In this document: piece after piece, positions 52,731 to 64,000 of the stretch
How positions within the stretch are numbered: the stretch's first letter is position 1
Layout: each line of letters opens with the position of its first letter
Assembly (NCBI GenBank): GCA_937889545.1
Contig: CALAOT010000003.1
Span: forward strand, 1-64,000
Length of the DNA: 64,000 nt
Source of the DNA: an uncultured Opitutaceae bacterium
GTDB taxonomy: Bacteria; Verrucomicrobiota; Verrucomicrobiia; Opitutales; Opitutaceae
Reading direction: 5' to 3'
Notes under the pieces: generated by a model
Databases searched by the model: none
What the model saw: the letters and a program-made list of their open reading frames with translations, nothing else
Told to the model about the DNA's origin: nothing
Program-made: the position numbers and the translations under genes

Positions 52731-54638
52731 TTACGATGAATCACTTCGACTCGGCGAGGCGGGTTCTTCCGGCGCTTTGCGGCCCGCCTTTACGACTCCA
52801 TCCTCATCCGCTTCGTCATTAACTTCCAACGGCGGGACTCCATGACCTTTCTCTGTTTTCCAGTGTTCGTTGATCCATTCGACTAAGTTCTTCCTGCGGT
52901 CGCTGAATTCTTTCGGTGTCCAGTCGGAATATCCGGAGATTTTGCGCTCCTGCCGAATGTCGGAGTTACTGTAGCTTGGACTTTGGCCGGGGAGCCCCTT
53001 CTTTCTGGAAAACTCGAAATTTAAATAATTGGAGTTGTTCTGCGTCAGCACGAGATTGGCGATATCATGCAAGCACACCTTGATTTCCTCTTGGCCCCAA
53101 ACGGCAAGCCAATGCGATTTATCGACGGGTGTCTGAGGGAGGATGTGCTCGATTGTAGAATCACTCAATTGCTCCCATTTCAGATGTGGCGCCTTACCTT
53201 TTCCATCTTCGGCCAGAAGGTGAAGTTCATATTCAAACAAGGTGTATTTCAAGAGGTGCCGGCTGCCATACCAGTTGCTGGGCGCAGCGTTCTCTCCATT
53301 GAATGACTCCTCGGTCGCGTAGTGGCGGGTCAGGTCATGCACCCATGCTGTCACGTGGGACAACGTTTGGGATTGGGTAAAAACTTCGGATGCCCATCGA
53401 TGGAAACTCGATTTCCCCGCGTTGCTTCGTCGCCCATCATACAGAAACACCCGATAGGCGAAACACTCCAAGGCTTTCAGCAAGGCAATGTATTCAGATT
53501 GTACGATCATCCGGCTATCCAAGCTCCTCCTAGCGGCGACCATTAATGGAAGGAAATTGGCGATATTCCCCGTGTGGTGAATTTTGGTGAGCCACAGCAA
53601 TTCCTCCGACGATGTTGTGTTGGTCGCGGTCGGAGATGTAACGATGGAATAGTACCTGGAAACTTCCGCTAGCCCATCGACAAATTTGCTGATGAAACTC
53701 TTGGTATCAACCTTAGTGCGCGTGGCCGTGAAATTCCGCAATGGAATGTATTCGTCCCCCTTGAATCCATTGTATCCGTGCCAGTTTTTAGGGGAATGGT
53801 TGCAATAAAGCGTCCACGCAATTCGAAGGCATTGATCCTCGTCACCATCGCAAGAACCAAGATTCGTGTAGGTATCTTTCCAGCCCTTGTTGATGAGAGC
53901 GGTCAGAGTATTGCGTTCTGAAGCACTTGTGTTCCGTGATACCCAGTGCATCAGGTAATTCTTGAGCAATTCCAGCACGGACAAGTCCTTGCCACGCGAA
54001 TTCATCAGCTCGAAAGTCATGCCAATTTCACACTCCTCCTCAATCGTGTAGAAAGTGAATAGGAGCTTCTGGGTGACCGCGTGATAAAGTTCTTTTAAGT
54101 ATGCCACCCCGTCAGTACCCCGCTTCGCTAGTTGCGTATCGATGTGGTGTTGAAACCGACTTGAGGCTGCGACGAGGCGTGCTTCATGCGGTGATTGTGC
54201 TGCGGTGTTGGCCCGGCCCATTCTCAACAAATCGAAGAAGACGCCTGCTGTATCGTTATTGGGGGTCAGCTTGCAGATTGCGCCGGAATACAGAAAATCG
54301 GGAATTTCGCGCTCGAAGGCTGATTCGCCTTTGCTCACTAAGGAGCGGAAGACCACCGACAGATAGAGACATGAAGTGGTCAATCGCTGCTGCCCATCCA
54401 CCACGTCCACCACTTTCAATCGCTTCGTGCCATAGTCCATAATCTTTGCGTCATTGCCGCAGTAGACCACAATTGTGCCGGTGTAATGGCTTTTTACTGT
54501 CAGTTTGTCCTCAACGAGAGCGTCAATGTCTTGGATAAAGTCATCTATATGCTCAGTTTCCCAAGCGTATCCGCGCTGGTAGTCAGGGATACGGAAAAGG
54601 GATTCGGCAAAAAGGCTGGTCAGTGATTTTTTATCCAT
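52731..54638 (-). CDS. DUF262 / DUF1524 (GmrSD-type) restriction-like endonuclease
   Basis: 635 residues. The N-terminal DUF262 domain shows RIPDYQRGYAWE and VVDVVDGQQRLTTSCLYLSVVF, the ParB/Srx-like NTPase motifs of GmrS. The C-terminal DUF1524 domain shows IEHILPQTPVDKSHW and LHDIANLVLTQNNSNYLNF, the His-Asn-Asn nuclease pattern of GmrD. GmrSD-type proteins cut DNA with modified cytosines; related single-chain forms attack glucosylated or methylated phage DNA. Base composition is low in GC compared with the host. It lies 3 bp downstream of the PLD gene. Confidence 0.9.
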   Translation of the reverse strand: MDKKSLTSLFAESLFRIPDYQRGYAWETEHIDDFIQDIDALVEDKLTVKSHYTGTIVVYCGNDAKIMDYGTKRLKVVDVVDGQQRLTTSCLYLSVVFRSLVSKGESAFEREIPDFLYSGAICKLTPNNDTAGVFFDLLRMGRANTAAQSPHEARLVAASSRFQHHIDTQLAKRGTDGVAYLKELYHAVTQKLLFTFYTIEEECEIGMTFELMNSRGKDLSVLELLKNYLMHWVSRNTSASERNTLTALINKGWKDTYTNLGSCDGDEDQCLRIAWTLYCNHSPKNWHGYNGFKGDEYIPLRNFTATRTKVDTKSFISKFVDGLAEVSRYYSIVTSPTATNTTSSEELLWLTKIHHTGNIANFLPLMVAARRSLDSRMIVQSEYIALLKALECFAYRVFLYDGRRSNAGKSSFHRWASEVFTQSQTLSHVTAWVHDLTRHYATEESFNGENAAPSNWYGSRHLLKYTLFEYELHLLAEDGKGKAPHLKWEQLSDSTIEHILPQTPVDKSHWLAVWGQEEIKVCLHDIANLVLTQNNSNYLNFEFSRKKGLPGQSPSYSNSDIRQERKISGYSDWTPKEFSDRRKNLVEWINEHWKTEKGHGVPPLEVNDEADEDGVVKAGRKAPEEPASPSRSDSS

Positions 54639-54641
54639 GCC

Positions 54642-55610
54642 TCAGCGGGTTGGCTTCATTCTTTTCTGCTTTTTGAAGGCGGTTAGAATCTTCTCATCCA
54701 ATCTAATCAAGGAGCGATGACTGTGCTCTTTTCTGCCGAGCTGCAACCGACTAAAAGGAATGAGCTTTGGGAGAGCTTTGTATTTCAATAAAACAAAGGC
54801 GAAATTGAATTCAGGCCGCTTGTCAGGAGCGATTTTCTGTGTGATGCTGACTGTCGCCTCACCAAATATAAAGTGTTTCCAGGCAAGTAGAAGTTTACGC
54901 GGGCTTTTATCTTCTTTGATCGGCCAACCGAGCTTCCAATGCCAGAGCCTCCCAGGACGGTAATAGCGGGCCAATTCTTCCTTCGGGCTCTCGTCCTCGC
55001 CTGGTCCCCCGTAGCCGTTGAGTTTGTGAATCAAAATCCAACCGGGAGCTGGCGTATCCGGCGCGGGTGGATGCTCTTGCGGGGTGCCAAGTTTTACGCG
55101 ACCGCCAAAAGTTTTTCCGTGGCGTCTCCCTCCTCTAAACTGCTTGGGCAAGTGAGCGCATTCTGCGAGTTCTGCTTTTGTGATTGTTTTCCCATGCTGC
55201 CACAGTTCATCGAAGTGACGGATTAGCCCTCCGGCTATCTCGGTGTCATCAACGTGCAGGCCCATCTCGACATTCGATTCCAATCCTGAGTTCGTAAGAT
55301 TTGATGACGTGACAACCGCCGTCTTGTGGTCAGCAATAATGAACTTGGCGTGTAGATTCCTGATAAGCCGAACTTGGGCCGATTTATCATTTTCAATCCT
55401 CTCTAGCGCCGCGATAGATTGGCTCTGGGCTCCCACCCCTTGCTGTGACAATGCCAAGATGAAATATTTGCGGACCCCTTTCGCTGATCGTTGCAAAATG
55501 TTGGCAATCACACCCTCGGTATAGAATGGAGCTACGATACGTAGTTCTTTCTTTGCCGAAGACACCACCTTGTTAAATTCAGTTCGCCAAGGAGAGATGA
55601 CGAGTCGCAT
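54642..55610 (-). CDS. PLD-superfamily nuclease-like protein, single HKD motif
   Basis: 322 residues from ATG 55610. The N-terminal domain has LRIVAPFYTEGV and the HKD-type motif NLHAKFIIADHKTAVVTSSNLTNSGLESNVEMG, one copy, typical of nuclease-type PLDc_2 proteins that dimerise. The C-terminal 150 residues (GWILIHKLNGYGGPGEDESP..., FILLKYKALPKLIPF) are unassigned. It probably heads the operon with the DUF262 and HNH genes. It may be a DNA or RNA nuclease, or a sensor whose PLD site is used on phage DNA. Not a lipase. Confidence 0.75.
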   Translation of the reverse strand: MRLVISPWRTEFNKVVSSAKKELRIVAPFYTEGVIANILQRSAKGVRKYFILALSQQGVGAQSQSIAALERIENDKSAQVRLIRNLHAKFIIADHKTAVVTSSNLTNSGLESNVEMGLHVDDTEIAGGLIRHFDELWQHGKTITKAELAECAHLPKQFRGGRRHGKTFGGRVKLGTPQEHPPAPDTPAPGWILIHKLNGYGGPGEDESPKEELARYYRPGRLWHWKLGWPIKEDKSPRKLLLAWKHFIFGEATVSITQKIAPDKRPEFNFAFVLLKYKALPKLIPFSRLQLGRKEHSHRSLIRLDEKILTAFKKQKRMKPTR

Positions 55611-55670
55611 ATGAATTACGCTGCGCACTCTTCTAGAGGGTATCAAGCACTGCGGTTCTCACCTCGTGAT

Positions 55671-55749: not shown

Positions 55750-57777
55750 TTAGAGTTCATGAATTGCCCATCCTCGCAGTTTCAATGCATCCACAATGCC
55801 TTTGCCCCCATCCTTCGCCTTGGCGAATAGCGCGGATTTGGGCAGCGCCAAGCAGAGGAGATGGCTCGGCCGCGTCATCGCAACGTAGTGAAGTTTGAGG
55901 CGAGAAACCTCGGTATCCTTCGCCCCAGCGCCACCGCTGCGTTTGCCTAGCAACCAGTCCTTAATCGATGACATATTGTGCGAATACCAAAAAGTCTCCA
56001 AAACGAGCGTGGCCGTGTGCGTTTCGCCTTTCGCGGAGTGGATCGAACCGAAGTAGACTGTGACCTCTTTTTTGTCCTGGGCAAAGCACTGGAAGTTTTC
56101 CCGGCGGGAGGGTTGTCCATTCGCCGCGCCATCGGCGAGCCCGTCTTTCCATTCGAGGAAGGTCTGAGCCTGCGCGTCAGTCAGCGGTCCGTCGCCTATG
56201 GTCTCGGCAATTTTTTTCACGTGGGCACGCCATGTAGTGTTCCAAAGCTCCTTGGTGAGCCGCTGTCGCTCCACACCGAATAGGACGATGAATTCCTGGT
56301 ATTTTTCCAACTCGCCTGTGTGTAACTTGAGCAACCGCAGGATCTGGCGGTGCCGTTGACGTTCGCGCGCATCGCCGAGTATGTGGCCGCCCTTGGCGAG
56401 GGCCGCGAATCGTAGCACGCCTTCGGCTATTTTTTCCACGGCTTGGTGTGATTCGCCCTGCGTCGCTGCTTTGCCGACGCCGGCGAAAACGTATTGAACG
56501 AAAGTCTGTGGCTTAGGCTCAGCCCGCGACAAGGCCGGATCGTAGTCACGCCAATAGTGGCCGAGGTGCCCGGGGAAATGGTCGTCCCCCTTGTTCTGGT
56601 GCACCTGGCCGACAGCCTTGAAAAGACCGGCGCGGAGTTCGATGGCCGAAAAAGTGTCGAGCAGCAGTTTGCCGAACGCCGGTAAGACACGTGCGGCGCC
56701 GTCCGGACTGTCGAAAAGATAGATGGTGTGTTGGGCCTCGGCTACGCCGGAGGAGAGCGACTTCTTCGGCCCCTTTCCCTGAAGGATATAGGGTTGGATA
56801 CCGAGCGGGTCAGCGAGATTGGCGATGATCTGGCCAAAGCGGTGGCTCGTAGGCAAATCGCGTTGGATCGCCGCGAGTGGAAACATCAAATCAGGATTCC
56901 CGGTCGCTTCGTTTTCGGTGGAATCGAAGATGGCTTGGTTGCCGTCCCCGAACCGCTGGCGTGTCACTGGTGTTGCGCCTTCAGTGAAAATGCGGTGGAT
57001 AATGCGAGCCTGTTCATCCTTGGTATCTTGAGCCTCGTCGAGAAGGAGCATCGGGAAGCGGCCGCGCATTGTTTCGATTACTCCGGGCACCTTGTCGATG
57101 AGGTCGTGCGCCCACATGAACATTTCGTCGTAGCAGAAGAAGCCGTCTTGGGCCGACTTCTTGCACGCCTCGCAAAGACCTTGATAGAGCGGCGTGTCGA
57201 TCCCCAGCTTGCCGCCTGCCCATTTGATTTCGCCGACGTTGAAATTCGGGGCACGAGCAACGAGAATTGAGGGAGTGTGGCCGCCCTTTTTTAACGCGTA
57301 TTGTGCGTCGGCACTGAGAGAGCGCCAGCGGCGTTCAAGACACGAATCGGTGTCGATCATCCGCACTAGGTAACCAAGGGAATGTAGCCACGGAATCGCG
57401 AGGAACTCGTTTACGAAGCCGTGAATCGTGCCGATGAAGTGAGGATGACTGAGCAGGCGCCGTCCGGCGGCGGTGTGGCCCAGTCGCTTCTCAATCTCGA
57501 TGCGGGCGACATTGGTGTGTGAAAGGACGCAAAGACCGCGGGTGCGATAAGGCCATTTTGCCGCGAGAATTGCTAGCTTCCCGACAAGCAAGGTCGTCTT
57601 ACCACTCCCAGGGCAGGCGGCCACGTCGGTGCATTCCATCGATTTCAAAACCGTAGCTCGCATGTCCGCCCCATCGGCCCCAAAAAAGGCATCCGTTTTC
57701 ATTCCCAACTGGCCGCTGACCCACCGTATTTCGTCATCGGTGACCGACGGCATCTCGAATTTTTCAATATTACTCAC
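55750..57777 (-). CDS. UvrD-like superfamily-1 helicase (GajB-like)
   Basis: 675 residues from GTG 57777, which overlaps the stop of the upstream OLD gene by 4 bp. SF1 motifs in order: Walker A AACPGSGKTTLLV (GKT near residue 60), GTIHGFVNEFL, Walker B MLLLDEAQDTKDEQ, RFGDGNQAIFDS, then SIHSAKGETHTATLVLET and the VI motif LHYVAMTRPSHLL. It is longer than the published GajB (near 500), with an extra central helical region. Together with the OLD protein it matches the Gabija arrangement, in which the helicase side senses or loads on DNA. Confidence 0.9.
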   Translation of the reverse strand: MSNIEKFEMPSVTDDEIRWVSGQLGMKTDAFFGADGADMRATVLKSMECTDVAACPGSGKTTLLVGKLAILAAKWPYRTRGLCVLSHTNVARIEIEKRLGHTAAGRRLLSHPHFIGTIHGFVNEFLAIPWLHSLGYLVRMIDTDSCLERRWRSLSADAQYALKKGGHTPSILVARAPNFNVGEIKWAGGKLGIDTPLYQGLCEACKKSAQDGFFCYDEMFMWAHDLIDKVPGVIETMRGRFPMLLLDEAQDTKDEQARIIHRIFTEGATPVTRQRFGDGNQAIFDSTENEATGNPDLMFPLAAIQRDLPTSHRFGQIIANLADPLGIQPYILQGKGPKKSLSSGVAEAQHTIYLFDSPDGAARVLPAFGKLLLDTFSAIELRAGLFKAVGQVHQNKGDDHFPGHLGHYWRDYDPALSRAEPKPQTFVQYVFAGVGKAATQGESHQAVEKIAEGVLRFAALAKGGHILGDARERQRHRQILRLLKLHTGELEKYQEFIVLFGVERQRLTKELWNTTWRAHVKKIAETIGDGPLTDAQAQTFLEWKDGLADGAANGQPSRRENFQCFAQDKKEVTVYFGSIHSAKGETHTATLVLETFWYSHNMSSIKDWLLGKRSGGAGAKDTEVSRLKLHYVAMTRPSHLLCLALPKSALFAKAKDGGKGIVDALKLRGWAIHEL

Positions 57778-59771
57778 GGGGCAGCGCCAGCGGGCTGTTC
57801 CAAATCCGCGCCTGTGACGTAATCAATTGCGGCTATGAGGTAGTGCGGCAGGCTGGCCCGCAGTTGAGCCGCCGTTAGGTTCCCCGCAGCGTGTTTCTCC
57901 TGAAGCCGGTAAGCGAGGTATTGGGCAGCTATTGGCTTTGACACGCCCCCGACGAATTCTGCATAGACAGACGCAGCCAACGCTTCCTCCGGAGAGCCAC
58001 CCTCGGGGGCGGCGAGGCCGGCCTTCAGGGCGGCATACTGTTCCACTGCAAGTTTCTCTGAATCGGCGAGCGTGATTTTGCCGGAATTGATCCCATCATC
58101 GTTTGCGGCGAGGTAGGCCGCCACAAACACGTCCTCAGCGAGCCCGCACGGAAATTTGCCGTCGGCGCCTTCCGGACCGAGCGTCAGATCGTATTCGAAG
58201 GTCCATTCGTCAGAAACAAAGGTCTTCACGGCTTGGCCGTCGAACTTGGCGTTTTTCGCTGCCCGGTGAGCGGCGAGTGCGCTCGCATCGCCGATGTCGC
58301 TTTTTGCTCGCCAGCGTCGTTTGCCTAGCTCGGGCCACGGTTGGCCGGGTTCGACCTTGCCAATACGGGTGGGAGCCAGGTCGGGCATGACATCCATGTC
58401 TGTGATGCAGGCCACGCGAATCCCCAGTTCGCCATGCTTCTCCGGGTGCCTCCGTTTGAAGATTCGGGCATACCGGCCGAGGCCAACGCCGCCGACGTTG
58501 ACAATCGAGACGCCACGTTCGCTCAAATCGCGCCCGATGAGCTTGGCCAAGGTAGGAACGAGGATGTTCTCGGCGTCGCCTTCCACGATCATGACCCCAT
58601 ACGCGAAAAACAGGTTGGCCTTGGTGGCATCGAGGAATCGTTCGAGAAAGCGGCGGTCAGAGTTGTCCAACTCGGTCTCGGCGGCGGCAAGCGAGAAGGC
58701 TCGGCGGTTGCGAACGATGACCAAGTTTTCCAGTTCGATGGCGGAGGCGAGATTAGGGCTGTGCGTGGTGACGATGACCTGGATGCCCTCCTCCTTGGCT
58801 TGCGCTTGAAGCGACTTCATGACCTGCAACTGGCGTTGAGCATGGAGGTGGGCTTCTGGCTCTTCGATCAGGAGGAGCTTGTTTCCAACTTCTTCCTGAC
58901 CGAGCAGCAGAAGCTCGCAGGCCATGAACAACAGGTTGTCGGAGCCGAGCCCCATCTTGCCCTCACTCTCCAGCCGAAGATCGAGTTTCTCCAGCAACTC
59001 ACGCAGTCGGCTGTCATCCGAGGCCGTCGCGCCGCTGACTCGAATGGCGCTGGTCAACTTATCGCCATGCAAGGCCAATTCCTTCAAAGTTTCGTCGATT
59101 TTCCCGCGTGTGTCAGCGACCCCTTTTTGTTGTGCGAGTAATTCGCTCACCAGTTTTGCGATCCCGAGAATGCTGAGCTGCTGATTCTTGAGCGGGGTTG
59201 CGGCATCGTGGCTATCGGAACCGGTTTTGACCAATGCGGACTGACGAAGCACTTGGGCTAAGCGCGATCCGCGCCCTGCGGTTAGCGCTTCTTCCGCGTC
59301 GCGAAGCGGGCGGAGGTACGTGGCTTGGAGCAGCAGACGGGCCTCCGCCGAAATAACAGGGCCAGCTGCGTCCTTTCCAGACCGGACTTCAATTCGATGG
59401 AAGGGTCGGCCCCTACGAGATTCTCCGGTATTTTCGGCCAGCCAGTTTAGATACAGTATTGGTTTGTCACCAGGTTTCGCGCCATAGGTGAGGTATTCCG
59501 CGAATGTTCTGAGGTCTTTGGCGTCCAAAGCCTCGAATTTACAAACAATGGTGATTTCCGCTGCGCCAGCATGAAAATCGGAATCTTGAAGGCGCTGCCG
59601 ATCCTGATCTGACGTGCCAAGTGCAAATCGGAGGGCATCGATAACGGCGGTCTTCCCTGCATCGTTCGCACCGACGAGAGCGGTGAGGCCCTTGGTAAAC
59701 GTAATTTCCATCCGGCTGGCGCCAGCATCAACACACCGGAAATTTTTGATGGTCAATGTGGATAGATACAT
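57774..59771 (-). CDS. OLD-family ATP-dependent nuclease (GajA-like)
   Basis: 665 residues from ATG 59771 (the open frame extends 40 codons upstream, but the N-terminal ABC strand begins right after this ATG). The ABC-like ATPase has Walker A VGANDAGKTAVIDAL, Walker B LLLIEEPEAHLHAQRQLQ and a VTTHSPNLAS switch. The TOPRIM nuclease has VMIVEGDAENILVPTLA and ACITDMDVMPD (the E and DxD metal residues). Gabija GajA is an OLD nuclease sensing NTP depletion that cuts DNA and is paired with a UvrD helicase, which is the gene following with a 4-bp overlap. Protein length is larger than standard GajA. Confidence 0.9.
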   Translation of the reverse strand: MYLSTLTIKNFRCVDAGASRMEITFTKGLTALVGANDAGKTAVIDALRFALGTSDQDRQRLQDSDFHAGAAEITIVCKFEALDAKDLRTFAEYLTYGAKPGDKPILYLNWLAENTGESRRGRPFHRIEVRSGKDAAGPVISAEARLLLQATYLRPLRDAEEALTAGRGSRLAQVLRQSALVKTGSDSHDAATPLKNQQLSILGIAKLVSELLAQQKGVADTRGKIDETLKELALHGDKLTSAIRVSGATASDDSRLRELLEKLDLRLESEGKMGLGSDNLLFMACELLLLGQEEVGNKLLLIEEPEAHLHAQRQLQVMKSLQAQAKEEGIQVIVTTHSPNLASAIELENLVIVRNRRAFSLAAAETELDNSDRRFLERFLDATKANLFFAYGVMIVEGDAENILVPTLAKLIGRDLSERGVSIVNVGGVGLGRYARIFKRRHPEKHGELGIRVACITDMDVMPDLAPTRIGKVEPGQPWPELGKRRWRAKSDIGDASALAAHRAAKNAKFDGQAVKTFVSDEWTFEYDLTLGPEGADGKFPCGLAEDVFVAAYLAANDDGINSGKITLADSEKLAVEQYAALKAGLAAPEGGSPEEALAASVYAEFVGGVSKPIAAQYLAYRLQEKHAAGNLTAAQLRASLPHYLIAAIDYVTGADLEQPAGAAP

Positions 59772-59902
59772 CTTGGAAAACAGATGAGCGCTCTCTGCCG
59801 GTCGCCGCGGGTGATTTGATTTTGCGAGGCGCTCATTACCGCCAACCGTAGCGAAACAAATTATTTCTGCAAGCTTCTTTTTTTCTTGCAACAGGAAGAA
59901 AT
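59772..59902. promoter_or_regulatory. 131-bp divergent promoter region of the defence genes
   Basis: This gap separates the divergently transcribed OLD/UvrD and DUF499/PglZ operons and must hold promoters for both. An inverted repeat GCAAG / CTTGC around a pyrimidine-rich loop lies at about 59870-59889, and AGGAAG ends 6 nt before the ATG at 59903, a good ribosome site by local standards. No clear sigma-70 boxes are seen. Confidence 0.55.
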
Positions 59903-62500
59903 ATGATTATCAATCGCCGTATGCTCTCGCACATCCTCTCGCCCCGCGCCGACGTTCTTTCTGGCCGCATACAGGGTGTTATTGACCCCGACCGCATCAA
60001 CGATCCAAAGAAAAAGTCTCTTGAAGCCAAGCCCCTCGACTTTGCGCGCGCCACCTTCGTCTCTGCCGACATACGCCGGCTCATCAAGACCCTCCATACC
60101 CGCCTTAACGCCACTGATGACGAGGTAGGCACCATCCTGTTCGAGGGGCCTAAGGGCCAGGGCAAGAGCCATCTTATCACCTTGGCTTACCACTTGGTTG
60201 AACACCGCTCTGAGATGGCTGCTTGGCTGGCTGAGCATGACCTCGAACTGTCGATCCCGGCCAACGTTGTTCTTATTCTTCGTAAGTTCACGGACTTCCC
60301 CATCGAGACTCTCTGGCAGGTCATCGGCGACAAGATAGGCGCGACCTTTACCGGACAGCGTCCGCCAAGCCTCCCTGAATTTCGTGCCGCGCTATCTGGC
60401 CGGAAGCTCGTCCTCCTCTTCGACGAACTCGAGAGCGGCATCCGCGCCATCTCAGACGACAACCGCCGACAGGATAACATCAACTTTCTGCAAATGGTCT
60501 CCGAGGAGTCGATGCGCTCTGATTCCAATGTCGTGCTACTTGCGTCCATTTATGATGGGAGCATTGAGCCCGGGCTGACTCTCAAGCGCGTCAAGCCAGC
60601 CGAAATTCGATTCACCGACTCCCGCGACCGTCTTCGCATCATTTACCACCGACTCTTTGAGAAGTCCCCGCAGGCCCAGAATCCCGAGATCGACAATATC
60701 GTCAAAAGCTATGTCAACGGCTGGCAGCGCTTTGGCATTCCGGCCAACCAAGACTACGCCGAGCGTCTGCGTGAACACTATCCGTTCTCGCCCGAACTAC
60801 TGGACATTGTCTTGCAGCGCATTCCGCAAAGAGGCGGGTTCCAGGGCACACGCGGCGCTCTCGGTTTCCTTGCTGCTCTCGTCCGATTGCGCGGCACGCA
60901 GACGAATCTGCTTACGTTGGCCGATGTCTCGCTAGCCGATGTCGAGATTCGCACCTGGCTCGCCGATTTGGAACCATCGCAAAACCTTATCTCCTGCGCT
61001 GAGTCCAATCTTCGCGACCTCACCAAGTTTCCACTGGCGGATCGCATCGCCTCCGCGACCCTGATGGCCAGTCTCGCGCCCTCCAGGAATCCCGGCATTT
61101 CTGAAGACGAACTGTCCCGCCAGACCATTGATCCGGCAGCCGACTACAATCAGTTCAAGCATACCCTCGACGGCTTCATCAAGTTCGCCTCCTACTTTCA
61201 CCGTCACGACCAGCAGCTCTTTTTCGACACCAAGGAAAACGCCCATGCCAAGGTCGAGCTGCGTAGCTTGTCTGTGCAGGATAACGATGCCTGGGAACGC
61301 ATCAGCCAATGGTGGCGGACGGAAGTGTTCCGGGACTCCGAGGCCGTCGTTTTGAACGAGGTAGAACTTGCACGCGGCCGGGTTGATTCCCTCCAAATCG
61401 AGGGCCTTCGGTTTGTCATCTCGCCGCGCCGCCTGTCATCCGAAGAACGTTACGCCCTCTATTTTGGGCTGAAGCGGCGAAACACCATTGTCCTCCTCGA
61501 ACCGAGGGCAGATAAGGAGAACCTTCGTGCCAATAAGGACATTCTTGCTTGGGCGAGGAAAGCCATCGCGGCCGAAGCGCTCGCTACAGCCACGGGTGGC
61601 GATTCCGAAAAAGTTCGGGAGTTCACCAAAATCGCTACCGACCAGAAGTCCGCCGTCACGGATGCGATCAAAAAAATAAACTATGCCTATGTGCAGATTC
61701 ACAGCACCGGCACTACCGCGTCCGAAGGGGAATATACCTTGGAGCCGGTTCAACCACTCACCAAGGAGGCCACTCTCCTGCACCTATCGCGCAATCTTTT
61801 CCCGAGCGCTTACCTCGCCGAGCATATGCAGAGCCGCGCTGCCGATTTGTTGGGGCTCAAGGTCTCGGCTATCGAAGCGCAATATCGTAACACACTCAGC
61901 TACCCCGTCATCGTTTACACCAACGAGTTTCATCGCGCCATTGAGAGTCTGGTCGTGGATGGCGTATTCAACCTCGCCCATCCATCAGGCATGCAACACG
62001 CGGGAGAGTCGCCCACGCTGAGCGCTTCTGAACTGATGGATGCGGCGTTGGCTGCGCCCTCGGCGCGCCTTGCGTCGGCTCCGTCACCCCGCCCTCAACC
62101 ACCTGGCGGATCACTGCCCACCCCCTCCCCATCTGGGGTGACTGGTGGCGTAGGTGGTATGGATCCGCTGCCTCTTGGCCCCACGGAGCAACAGCTCTCC
62201 ACCGGCTTCTGTGAGTCCCGGCAGCAGCTCCGGCAGGAGGTCGCAGCCCGCCTCGATCAGGCCGAGGGTAGTCCAGTCTTGCGTGTGCGGATCGGCATGA
62301 CTTTTGAGTCCCGTACCGTCGAGATGTCCACGTTGCCGACCTTCCTGCGTGGTTCACTCACCGGCTCCGGAACCTTCAATGGTGAAGTTACCTTGGAATT
62401 TCCAGGCTCGTTCACCAAGGCCGCCGTTGAGGACATGATGGAGCGGTTGCCGGACTTTTCTCCCGGATCGGCAAAAGTCACCCTCACTCTCGGTGCTTAA
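59903..62500 (+). CDS. DUF499-type (COG1483) P-loop ATPase, defence-associated
   Basis: 865 residues. The N terminus ILSPRADVLSGRI, then the Walker A LFEGPKGQGKSHLITLAYHLVEHR (GKS near residue 88) and Walker B KLVLLFDELESG match the DUF499/BrxC-like AAA+ style found with PglZ in phage-exclusion systems. A Pro-rich linker near residues 720-750 (PRPQPPGGSLPTPSPSG) leads to a C-terminal beta-rich domain (RVRIGMTFESRTVEMSTLP...NGEVTLEFPG). It would be the ATP-driven sensor or translocase of the system. PglZ starts 5 bp after its stop. No methyltransferase is visible. It is shorter than the usual BrxC (about 1200). Confidence 0.78.
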   Translation: MIINRRMLSHILSPRADVLSGRIQGVIDPDRINDPKKKSLEAKPLDFARATFVSADIRRLIKTLHTRLNATDDEVGTILFEGPKGQGKSHLITLAYHLVEHRSEMAAWLAEHDLELSIPANVVLILRKFTDFPIETLWQVIGDKIGATFTGQRPPSLPEFRAALSGRKLVLLFDELESGIRAISDDNRRQDNINFLQMVSEESMRSDSNVVLLASIYDGSIEPGLTLKRVKPAEIRFTDSRDRLRIIYHRLFEKSPQAQNPEIDNIVKSYVNGWQRFGIPANQDYAERLREHYPFSPELLDIVLQRIPQRGGFQGTRGALGFLAALVRLRGTQTNLLTLADVSLADVEIRTWLADLEPSQNLISCAESNLRDLTKFPLADRIASATLMASLAPSRNPGISEDELSRQTIDPAADYNQFKHTLDGFIKFASYFHRHDQQLFFDTKENAHAKVELRSLSVQDNDAWERISQWWRTEVFRDSEAVVLNEVELARGRVDSLQIEGLRFVISPRRLSSEERYALYFGLKRRNTIVLLEPRADKENLRANKDILAWARKAIAAEALATATGGDSEKVREFTKIATDQKSAVTDAIKKINYAYVQIHSTGTTASEGEYTLEPVQPLTKEATLLHLSRNLFPSAYLAEHMQSRAADLLGLKVSAIEAQYRNTLSYPVIVYTNEFHRAIESLVVDGVFNLAHPSGMQHAGESPTLSASELMDAALAAPSARLASAPSPRPQPPGGSLPTPSPSGVTGGVGGMDPLPLGPTEQQLSTGFCESRQQLRQEVAARLDQAEGSPVLRVRIGMTFESRTVEMSTLPTFLRGSLTGSGTFNGEVTLEFPGSFTKAAVEDMMERLPDFSPGSAKVTLTLGA

Positions 62501-62505
62501 TTCTC

Positions 62506-63510
62506 GTGCACTCGCTTGACCTACCTTCCGACGTGTTGATTGCCAGTGGCTCTCGCATTCCTGCGATTGCCAATTGGCTGCTTCACACCGTCTGGTCGTC
62601 GGCCCGTTTTGCGGCGGTGCCGCGGGAGGAATATTTGCGCACTGGTGAAGCCGCCGTGACGCAGGCCGAGGAACTCATCTCGCTTGGGGCTGCCCGAGTT
62701 TGGGACGAACTGGTCGTCGAGACAACCCGGGCACCAACGCCGCGCTCGTTTCTTGGCCTGGATGTTCATCCCACCTCCGCCCAGGCGTCGCCTCGCGCTG
62801 TAGTAGTTTTTGACGGTCTCTCGCTCCGCGAACTACCCCTTCTGTTGGCGCTAGCCGGCCAAACCGGGTTCCAGGTCGATGAAGCCCGCGCGATAGCCAC
62901 GTCGCTGCCTACTGAGACCATCGACTTTGTTTCGCAGCGGGTGGTGGGCCCGGATGCCGCCCATGGCCTGGGCCCCAGCCAGTTGCCGTCCGTCAAAGCG
63001 CTTAAAGTGCGCGGGGTCCATGCCGAGTATCTCGACAGTCTCAACCCTCGCGTCGCACTACCAACGGGGAAATCGCTGCTCCTCTGGTCCACCTGGCCGG
63101 ATCGTCTGTTCAAGAACGACGAAGCCCGCTTTGACACACAGCTTTTCCCGCAGTTTTGCGACCATGTCGCCACCCTCTGGAAATACACCGTGCAGGCTAT
63201 CCCTCCCGGCATGCCCATTGTCATCACCAGTGATCACGGCTACATATTTTTTGGCGGCACAGCCGAAAGTGCCCGCGAATCCGCCGCGGCAGAGCAGCTT
63301 CGCCAGCAACGTCACCGAGTTTTCGAGGAACAGGCTCCTTATCCGGCCCCCCATCCCGACCTTCAGCGTTTTCCGGCCCAGCGTCTTGCGATGCTGCGCG
63401 GCCGTCTTAAGACTCGCCCCAAAGGCACTAGCTCCAAGCATCTCTATCAACACGGAGGATTCTCCCTAATGGAAGTGCTGGTCCCGTGGGTCCTCCTTCA
63501 CCGCAACTAA
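62506..63510 (+). CDS. Minimal PglZ-domain protein (alkaline-phosphatase fold)
   Basis: 334 residues from GTG 62506. PglZ metal-site blocks are AVVVFDGLSLRELPLLLALA (Asp), MPIVITSDHGYIFFGG (Asp-His) and LYQHGGFSLMEVLVPWVLL (His), in the order of the alkaline phosphatase superfamily. Full PglZ is usually 600-900 residues; here the long helical domains are absent. In BREX and Pgl systems PglZ is an essential phosphatase-like component with an unclear substrate. It lies 5 bp after the DUF499 gene and 9 bp before the RHH gene, so all four are one transcription unit. Confidence 0.82.
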   Translation: MHSLDLPSDVLIASGSRIPAIANWLLHTVWSSARFAAVPREEYLRTGEAAVTQAEELISLGAARVWDELVVETTRAPTPRSFLGLDVHPTSAQASPRAVVVFDGLSLRELPLLLALAGQTGFQVDEARAIATSLPTETIDFVSQRVVGPDAAHGLGPSQLPSVKALKVRGVHAEYLDSLNPRVALPTGKSLLLWSTWPDRLFKNDEARFDTQLFPQFCDHVATLWKYTVQAIPPGMPIVITSDHGYIFFGGTAESARESAAAEQLRQQRHRVFEEQAPYPAPHPDLQRFPAQRLAMLRGRLKTRPKGTSSKHLYQHGGFSLMEVLVPWVLLHRN

Positions 63511-63519
63511 ACTATCGCC

Positions 63520-63750
63520 ATGAGCAAAATCAAAGTAGGCACTCAGATCGAAGAAGACATCTACCAAAAGCTAAAGCTGGCGGCGACGCGCGAGCGTAGG
63601 CCAGTCGGCGAAGTCATCCAGGACGCCGTTACGGTCTATCTCCGTCGCCAACAGAAGTCCGGCCTCGCTCGGCTTCTGGAGCGGGAGCCGTTCAAGATTT
63701 CCGAGGAGCAATTCCGCGAGAGCATGGAGGCGGATTTCTACGATCAATGA
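63520..63750 (+). CDS. Ribbon-helix-helix antitoxin (VapB-like)
   Basis: 76 residues. KVGTQIEEDIYQKLKLAATRERRPVGEVIQDAVTVYL is the beta-strand plus two-helix RHH DNA-binding fold of CopG/MetJ type, and the tail (LARLLEREPFKISEEQFRESMEADFYDQ) is the usual toxin-binding segment. Its stop overlaps the start of the PIN-domain gene (ATGA at 63747), as for VapBC pairs. It would bind and neutralise the toxin and repress its own promoter. It lies only 9 bp after the PglZ stop, unusual for a free-standing antitoxin gene. Confidence 0.85.
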   Translation: MSKIKVGTQIEEDIYQKLKLAATRERRPVGEVIQDAVTVYLRRQQKSGLARLLEREPFKISEEQFRESMEADFYDQ

Positions 63751-64000
63751 AACTCGACGACATCCGCAACGGCACCCGTGTTTTCGTCGATGCCAATATC
63801 CTTATCTATGCACGCCGCGGGGCTTCACCGCAGTGTCGCAGTTTTCTCACCCGCTGTGATACGGGCGCGATCGAGGGATGGATTACTACTTCTGTGATCG
63901 CCGAATTCAGTCACCGGCGCATGATCCAGGAGGCGCAGTCCATCGGCTTGGTCGGTTCCAATCCGGCCCGCGCGCTCGCAGAGAAACCCGCGCTATTGCG
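63747..64000 (+). CDS. PIN-domain toxin (VapC-like), 3'-truncated by the window edge
   Basis: Starts at ATG 63747, overlapping the antitoxin stop. The visible 84 residues read FVDANILIYARRG (first acidic PIN residue in a VDxNxLIY motif), then ITTSVIAEFSHRRM, which carries the second acidic residue (Glu in AEF). PIN toxins cut tRNA or rRNA with a Mg2+-binding acidic site. The C-terminal acidic residues lie past the window edge. The operon position after PglZ suggests that it may be part of the same defence unit, or a passenger stabilising the island. Confidence 0.88.
   Translation, partial: MKLDDIRNGTRVFVDANILIYARRGASPQCRSFLTRCDTGAIEGWITTSVIAEFSHRRMIQEAQSIGLVGSNPARALAEKPALL

Follow-up and report, generated by a model that had tools for sequence, protein, structure and literature searches.

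The stretch analysed here (the window) comprises positions 1 to 64,000 of contig CALAOT010000003.1 from an uncultured Opitutaceae bacterium (assembly GCA_937889545.1; genome G000 below). At its right end begins an operon encoding an ATPase, a PglZ protein and a pair made of a ribbon-helix-helix (RHH) protein and a PIN-domain ribonuclease (RNase). These four genes sit where a sequence-only reading of the window had put them. The same reading took them for a compact four-gene system without a methyltransferase (MTase). This claim fell, because the contig (103,458 bases) runs on beyond the window with an MTase gene just past the window end, a gene of 151 codons and a helicase gene; the four-gene appearance is a window-edge effect, and the core is that of a described system, the Type-3 BREX-Related (BR) system (Rakesh & Krishnan 2026, PMC12839542; all statements on this paper refer to its main text). 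The features of the locus are listed below, with the window numbering continued past position 64,000 for the last three.

59882..59901, + strand: palindrome TTTCTTG-CAACAG-GAAGAAA, proposed RHH operator; one mismatch to TTTCTTG-N6-CAAGAAA, ending 19 bp before the ATG at 59921
59921..62500, + strand: DUF499/HmaC-type AAA+ ATPase; the open reading frame (ORF) opens at 59903, the start being taken from a relative
62506..63510, + strand: standalone PglZ, 334 aa, GTG start, with FDG, TSDHG and QHGG motifs kept
63520..63750, + strand: RHH protein, 76 aa, VapB-like antitoxin, proposed operon repressor
63747..64250, + strand: PIN-domain RNase, 167 aa, cut by the window end at 64000; D15, E53, D128 and D147 kept
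64260-67406: DUF1156/HmaB-like MTase, 1048 aa
67409-67864: conserved 151-aa gene, between the MTase and helicase genes
67861-70689: SNF2 helicase, no nuclease domain detected

Judged from the relative, 59921, rather than 59903, is the most likely start of the ATPase. From the ATPase gene through the 151-aa gene the intergenic gaps measure 5, 9, -4, 9 and 2 bp, the negative value being the overlap of the RHH and PIN genes, and the last 4 bp of the 151-aa gene are shared with the start of the helicase gene. Therefore, the seven genes look like one tight operon. A consensus scan of L003:2400-4400 found no separate promoter for the RHH-PIN pair, with the reservation that the consensus may not suit this organism.

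The ATPase matched the HmaC (1.5e-14) and DUF499 (4.6e-10) profiles and, below the cut-offs, NF042962 (1e-17) and Pfam DUF499 (3.4e-4); DUF6079 gave no Pfam match at 1e-3, DUF499 itself being matched weakly. We take its GPKGQGKS and LVLLFDE sequences to be the Walker A and Walker B motifs, and the three PglZ motifs to form the metal site. Matches of the MTase were to HmaB (9e-33), DUF1156_MTase (7e-26), N6_N4_Mtase (3.7e-11) and PglXI (8e-18), and those of the helicase to HmaA (3e-103), BrxHI|BrxHII (8e-100) and BrxHII (3e-77). All five Pfam families found in the helicase are helicase/NTPase domains, and none is a nuclease domain. The 151-aa gene is conserved in genomes G085, G404 and G837 (see below) and matched no family in Pfam, NCBIfam or PADLOC.

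Three known systems were compared with this gene set. All three core proteins match profiles of Hma, or Type-1 BR (HmaA helicase, HmaB MTase, HmaC ATPase); however, Type-1 BR is described as having a helicase-nuclease and no PglZ (PMC12839542), whereas this locus has a PglZ and a helicase in which no nuclease domain was found, and membership in this class was rejected on these grounds. The BrxH-type and PglXI matches, together with PglZ, recall Type-3 BREX (BrxC, BrxXI, BrxHII, PglZ). This class was rejected as well, since PglZ is here an unfused protein of its own gene. The ATPase seems to be of the DUF499 rather than the DUF6079 type, a distinction that the profiles draw only weakly. In contrast, a DUF499-type ATPase, a DUF1156-like N6-MTase, a nuclease-free BrxHII-type helicase and a standalone, presumably active PglZ are together the components described for the DUF499-centred Type-3 BR, which like this locus has one more small conserved gene (PMC12839542). 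As judged from these profile matches, the locus almost certainly belongs to Type-3 BR. With PglZ, helicase and MTase all present, the idea that the PIN protein stands in as effector for such large genes is not supported; it could at most be an extra effector. The sequence-only reading had nevertheless singled out the PIN pair as the part to check, and rightly so.

The surroundings of related PglZ genes were examined in 387 genomes of the same phylum and 200 of the same family, in two other phyla (64 and 297 genomes), and in 8 and 177 genomes of two classes; the family, class and phylum samples overlap. One genome-collection scan with two short peptide patterns yielded four loci, two of them on contigs already known. 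PglZ matches weaker than 1e-10 were left out (e.g. G394, G583, G565, G162, G016 and others near 1e-4). The close clade comprises 11 loci and one remnant, and the slot following PglZ is readable in ten of the 11. Not counted were G388 (contig ends in PglZ), the remnant G755 (73 aa of PglZ before a Fic-like gene) and G689 (PglZ match in two fragments). Four of the genomes are assigned as follows: G085, Verrucomicrobia; G180, Lentisphaerales; G387, Latescibacterota; G388, Desulfobacterales. G837, G708 and G737 are from the phylum of G388. The readable slots contain the following.

G000: RHH-PIN
G085: RHH-PIN, ThsB-type TIR gene, 188-aa gene
G180: RHH-PIN, Schlafen-type gene up to the contig end
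G837: RHH-PIN, with the full seven-gene order as in G000
G708: RHH-PIN; the locus spans two contigs, with almost identical sequence repeated at their ends
G968: RHH-PIN, DUF3800
G969: RHH-PIN, in a decayed locus
G404: Schlafen
G387: nucleotidyltransferase
G737: Fic

Thus, RHH-PIN directly follows PglZ in seven of the ten resolved clade loci, from two phyla (seven of 11 if the G755 remnant is included). The pair is conserved in the same place in another genus, in other families and in another phylum, against the possibility, raised in the sequence-only reading, that it is a passenger. By contrast with this clade, Type-3 BR neighbourhoods are said, by way of description and not of definition, to be without conserved standalone nucleases, and PIN RNases are named among the less common genes of BREX and BR loci (PMC12839542). 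RHH-PIN was absent from all nine distant-branch and named plasmid or archaeal loci (G567, G644, G869, G293, G954, whose contig ends before any MTase, Ensifer, Aminobacter, Tenderia and Halorubrum), and tblastn with three PIN and three RHH sequences gave no match in these nine loci or in G387, G404 and G737 (12 loci). These sequence comparisons make a non-random association of RHH-PIN with the BR operon very likely. PIN genes are common as such, 20 PIN-family matches being present in the G000 genome, and a widespread toxin-antitoxin pair might have landed here as a passenger by chance. However, a homologous pair in the same slot of seven out of ten loci, its single PIN clade and the palindrome at the operon promoter (both described below) refute this explanation as far as sequence allows, and leave it scarcely any probability. 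The variety of its contents suggests that the PglZ-MTase junction is an exchangeable effector slot in the Type-3 BR operons of this clade.

The PIN residues D15, E53, D128 and D147 are invariant in the five members aligned and presumably represent the PIN motif. A profile built from three BR PIN proteins strongly matched only these same three loci among 377 genomes of the same phylum (self-matches by construction), the next match in the phylum being G206 (8e-18). In 297 genomes from the phylum of G388, the best two of 26 listed PIN matches were the BR loci G837 and G708, neither of which had contributed to the profile. Fifteen other PIN loci of this phylum were read: none showed a BR core gene match, and 12 have a small adjoining antitoxin-like gene, as judged by eye, while in three none was seen. 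Among 177 genomes from the class of G180, the four strong PIN matches were G180 (in the profile), the BR loci G968 and G969, and G942, in which an RHH-PIN pair stands alone. Searches of viral contigs with PglZ or PIN and of plasmids with the PglZ of G000 or three PINs returned no relative, and a PDB sequence search with PIN returned none at 0.01.

Two of the more remote PIN homologues have neighbours of their own. The G206 gene lies between an Eco57I-type MTase and a PLD-SNF2 helicase (L059:4969-13746), in another restriction-like operon. In G788, one of the three loci with no antitoxin-like gene, the PIN homologue directly precedes genes resembling, by eye, those of type III CRISPR (RAMP) systems (L107:4734-9868).

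The seven BR PINs and the solitary G942 PIN form one clade (support 100/99); a clade of the BR PINs without the solitary copy is not rejected (p-AU 0.175). In a tree of ATPase, PglZ and MTase columns, RHH-PIN loci surround G737, G387 and G404, and two changes suffice to explain the distribution, namely that the clade had the pair from its base and that it was lost or replaced once. This tree has partly filled rows for G180, G387 and G388 and one inner fork supported at 80/77, and does not include G969. Grouping the PIN-bearing core loci and G388 as a single clade is disfavoured (p-AU 0.014; single-gene trees had been seen earlier). The disfavoured single clade and the sufficiency of two changes favour an ancient pair with a single loss over a recent acquisition; probably, RHH-PIN was present early in the clade and was then replaced in the same slot by other effector-like genes.

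The persistence of the pair could also be that of an addiction module, which would kill cells that lose the operon and in this way do no more than keep it, and the mobile element on which it resides, stable, the autoregulation being ordinary type II feedback that has captured the operon promoter. The solitary copy in G942 fits such a role, as does the decayed G969 locus, where RHH and PIN are intact despite truncation of the ATPase and PglZ and the lack of any MTase match; a TrwC relaxase and a coupling protein are moreover encoded some 3-8 kb downstream of the G000 operon. Yet in the relatives the slot holds Fic, Schlafen or nucleotidyltransferase genes, and in G085 a TIR gene accompanies RHH-PIN; such contents are more in keeping with an effector slot, and retention in a clade spanning two phyla is long for pure addiction. 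We regard addiction as the main function as unlikely, although it has more in its favour than any of the other alternatives considered here.

The palindrome preceding the ATPase gene has the consensus TTTCTWG-N6/7-CWAGAAA. The form TTTCTTG-N6-CAAGAAA is found exactly upstream of the ATPase in G085 and G837 and with one mismatch in G000, where the 64-kb window contains this one match versus 0.07 expected. A scan for the N6 form in 903,536 bases (overlapping loci included), allowing up to 2 mismatches, located it also in G708 (0 mismatches), in G388 (1) and before the solitary G942 pair (2), as well as at two unrelated places (L060:17904 and L108:2799). G968 and G969 carry the N7 form. The two spacings were combined in a test of the 150 bp upstream of the genes (56 bp for G708); G387, whose ATPase N-terminus is unreadable in frame, and G180, whose contig starts inside the ATPase, were left out. 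With at most one mismatch, the combined pattern occurs in all six RHH-PIN BR operons for which upstream DNA is available; G388 and the solitary G942 pair have it too. The best matches in 13 regions of nine RHH-PIN-free BR operons (G404, G737, G567, G644, G869, Ensifer, Aminobacter, Tenderia and Halorubrum) have 3-6 mismatches. Out of 355 ORF-upstream regions, eight reach one mismatch or less, all at RHH-PIN BR loci, G388 or the solitary pair (an antisense ORF that uses the G085 stretch a second time is among them), and two have 2 mismatches. For each of the eight regions, 0 of 400 plain shuffles attained the observed value.

The arms of the palindrome are identical at 13-14 of 14 positions between G000, G085 and G837, as compared with 18-26 of 80 in the upstream flank and 3-5 of the 19 bp downstream. 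The start codon follows at 19 bp in G000, G085, G837 and G708, and at 21 bp in G388. In several of these loci the left arm continues into what resembles a -35 box (TTGACA in G837, G708 and G388, TTGACG in G085), a usual place of a repressor site. We also considered that the palindrome might form an RNA hairpin, which is less likely because the left arm runs into the -35-like box. Upstream of its BR operon, G968 has four palindromes in tandem, TTTTTCCATTGTGTGGAAAAA, together with a shorter one (L134:49-182).

The palindrome thus tracks the RHH-PIN pair, not the BR core: it accompanies the pair even where this stands alone and is missing or poor in BR operons lacking the pair. Five of the nine RHH-PIN-free operons have another DNA-binding gene just before the ATPase, coding for HTH_17 (G404 and G869), HTH_3 (Aminobacter), HTH_31 (a 218-aa protein in G567) and an RHH below the Pfam cut-off (Tenderia). 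The site might instead belong to another regulator, with RHH-PIN carried along. Binding of the palindrome by RHH is a prediction, a TTGACA-like -35 box reaches into its left half, and a match with two mismatches precedes the HTH gene of the RHH-PIN-free G567 operon. However, no match with one mismatch or less was found before the RHH-PIN-free BR operons tested, and the palindrome precedes the G942 pair, where no BR gene was found in the 14.6 kb covered; we consider ownership by another regulator rather improbable. The co-occurrence leads us to infer that RHH binds the palindrome, and a role as operator-binding regulator is more likely than not for this protein. An operon placed under the usual toxin-antitoxin feedback would be the simplest account.

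If RHH regulates, its role might end there, with PIN serving as a co-repressor and idle during infection while RHH sets the level of BR expression. The association with the palindrome would agree with this, and other BR operons also have DNA-binding genes ahead of the ATPase. But the four acidic residues of PIN are invariant, and a pure co-repressor would not need them; a purely regulatory function accordingly ranks as quite unlikely. For BREX and BR loci, it has been proposed that RNases act as backup suicide effectors (PMC12839542). Here a backup role for PIN is plausible because the acidic residues are kept and the genes that take the place of the pair (Fic, Schlafen, nucleotidyltransferase) are of effector or antitoxin types, and we give such a role a little less than an even chance.

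We propose that a VapBC-type RHH-PIN module has been wired into a restriction-like system of Type-3 BR at this locus. If the core works as in the published system, the MTase would mark host DNA, and unmarked DNA would be found and processed by the ATPase, the helicase and the product of the small gene and cut by PglZ; Type I BREX PglZ is described in the available text of PMC12205998 as a metal-dependent nuclease. RHH would neutralise PIN and, alone or with PIN, occupy the promoter palindrome, thus keeping the whole operon low. A phage that lowers the level of RHH, presumably a short-lived protein, would open the promoter and raise BR expression, and the freed PIN would cut RNA as a last resort. 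The toxicity of PIN, infection as the trigger and protection are predicted rather than seen. As a whole, the explanation of RHH-PIN as repressor and backup RNase of a Type-3 BR system, predicted from sequence, appears to us slightly better than an even bet.

Several points weigh against it. Three resolved clade loci have no RHH-PIN (four of 11 counting the G755 remnant), and the loci form three related groups (G000/G085, G180/G968/G969 and G837/G708), so the counts overstate independence. As the solitary G942 pair indicates, RHH-PIN can live without BR. The N7 form joined the pattern only after G968 and G969 had been seen. No palindrome precedes the more distant solitary pairs of G646 and G683 (4 mismatches), and the two-mismatch match heading the G567 operon has an exact left arm and a poor right arm. 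Finally, Type-3 BR has an iSTAND gene in 466 of 569 taxa (PMC12839542), and assigning the 151-aa gene to this role is unproven.

As in VapBC-type pairs with an RHH antitoxin, the RHH gene overlaps the PIN gene and the PIN acidic residues are kept. Unlike in such pairs, the palindrome stands some 3.6 kb before rhh, at the head of a defence operon of seven genes, the consensus scan having found no promoter for the pair itself. BrxR, a regulator of Type I BREX, is likewise encoded in its operon and binds DNA upstream of it; in the available text of PMC9122589, however, it is a winged-HTH/WYL protein and not the antitoxin of a mid-operon toxin pair. Relative to the description of Type-3 BR, the present clade differs by a conserved in-operon RHH-PIN pair and a common promoter palindrome. 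The main text of PMC12839542 contains none of the terms RHH, VapC, ribbon-helix-helix, operator or autoregulat, and a literature search, judged from listings and abstract starts, turned up no paper describing RHH-PIN in BR operons. While the core system is already described, the conserved pair, the exchangeable slot and the shared palindrome of this clade were not found in print.

More tentatively, the toxin-antitoxin pair may be the control switch of a BREX-like system, in which a fall in RHH both induces defence and frees an abortive RNase, and whose slot swaps RHH-PIN, Schlafen, Fic, nucleotidyltransferase and TIR modules while the core stays. The matter bears on how bacteria hold costly and potentially self-damaging defence operons low until they are needed, and on why toxin-antitoxin pairs crowd defence islands. 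The conserved palindrome offers a directly testable link, since one RHH protein may gate both a BREX-like operon and a suicide RNase.

The neighbourhood of the operon is a defence island. A complete Gabija pair lies divergently from it on the - strand at 55750-59891 of the window (GajA 9.6e-191, GajB 2.4e-184); the GajA match begins at residue 40, so the true start probably lies about 120 bp downstream of the one listed (59891). The island continues on the - strand at 52731-55646 with a PLD-type protein (DrmC-like) and a GmrSD/HEC-06 protein. On the other side, a HEPN AbiU2-like gene is found just after the BR helicase (contig C3, about 70997-71668; L003:10997-11668), and the relaxase and coupling protein genes (C3, about 74067-78812; L003:14067-18812) mark the border with a region resembling a conjugative element.

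Some of the related loci also have features of interest. In the decayed BR locus of G969 (L135:999-8956), a UvrD-like/ankyrin protein replaces the MTase, and the small gene and the helicase gene, like RHH-PIN, look intact. Two genomes of one genus have a Mu-like prophage region beside two different BR systems (L010:392-5283 and L061:165-1067). The L010 region includes portal and protease families, and a 300-aa protein is 92% identical in L010 and L061. One of these prophage-flanked BR systems has RHH-PIN and the other does not, and they lie in opposite orientations; the position is perhaps a cargo site.

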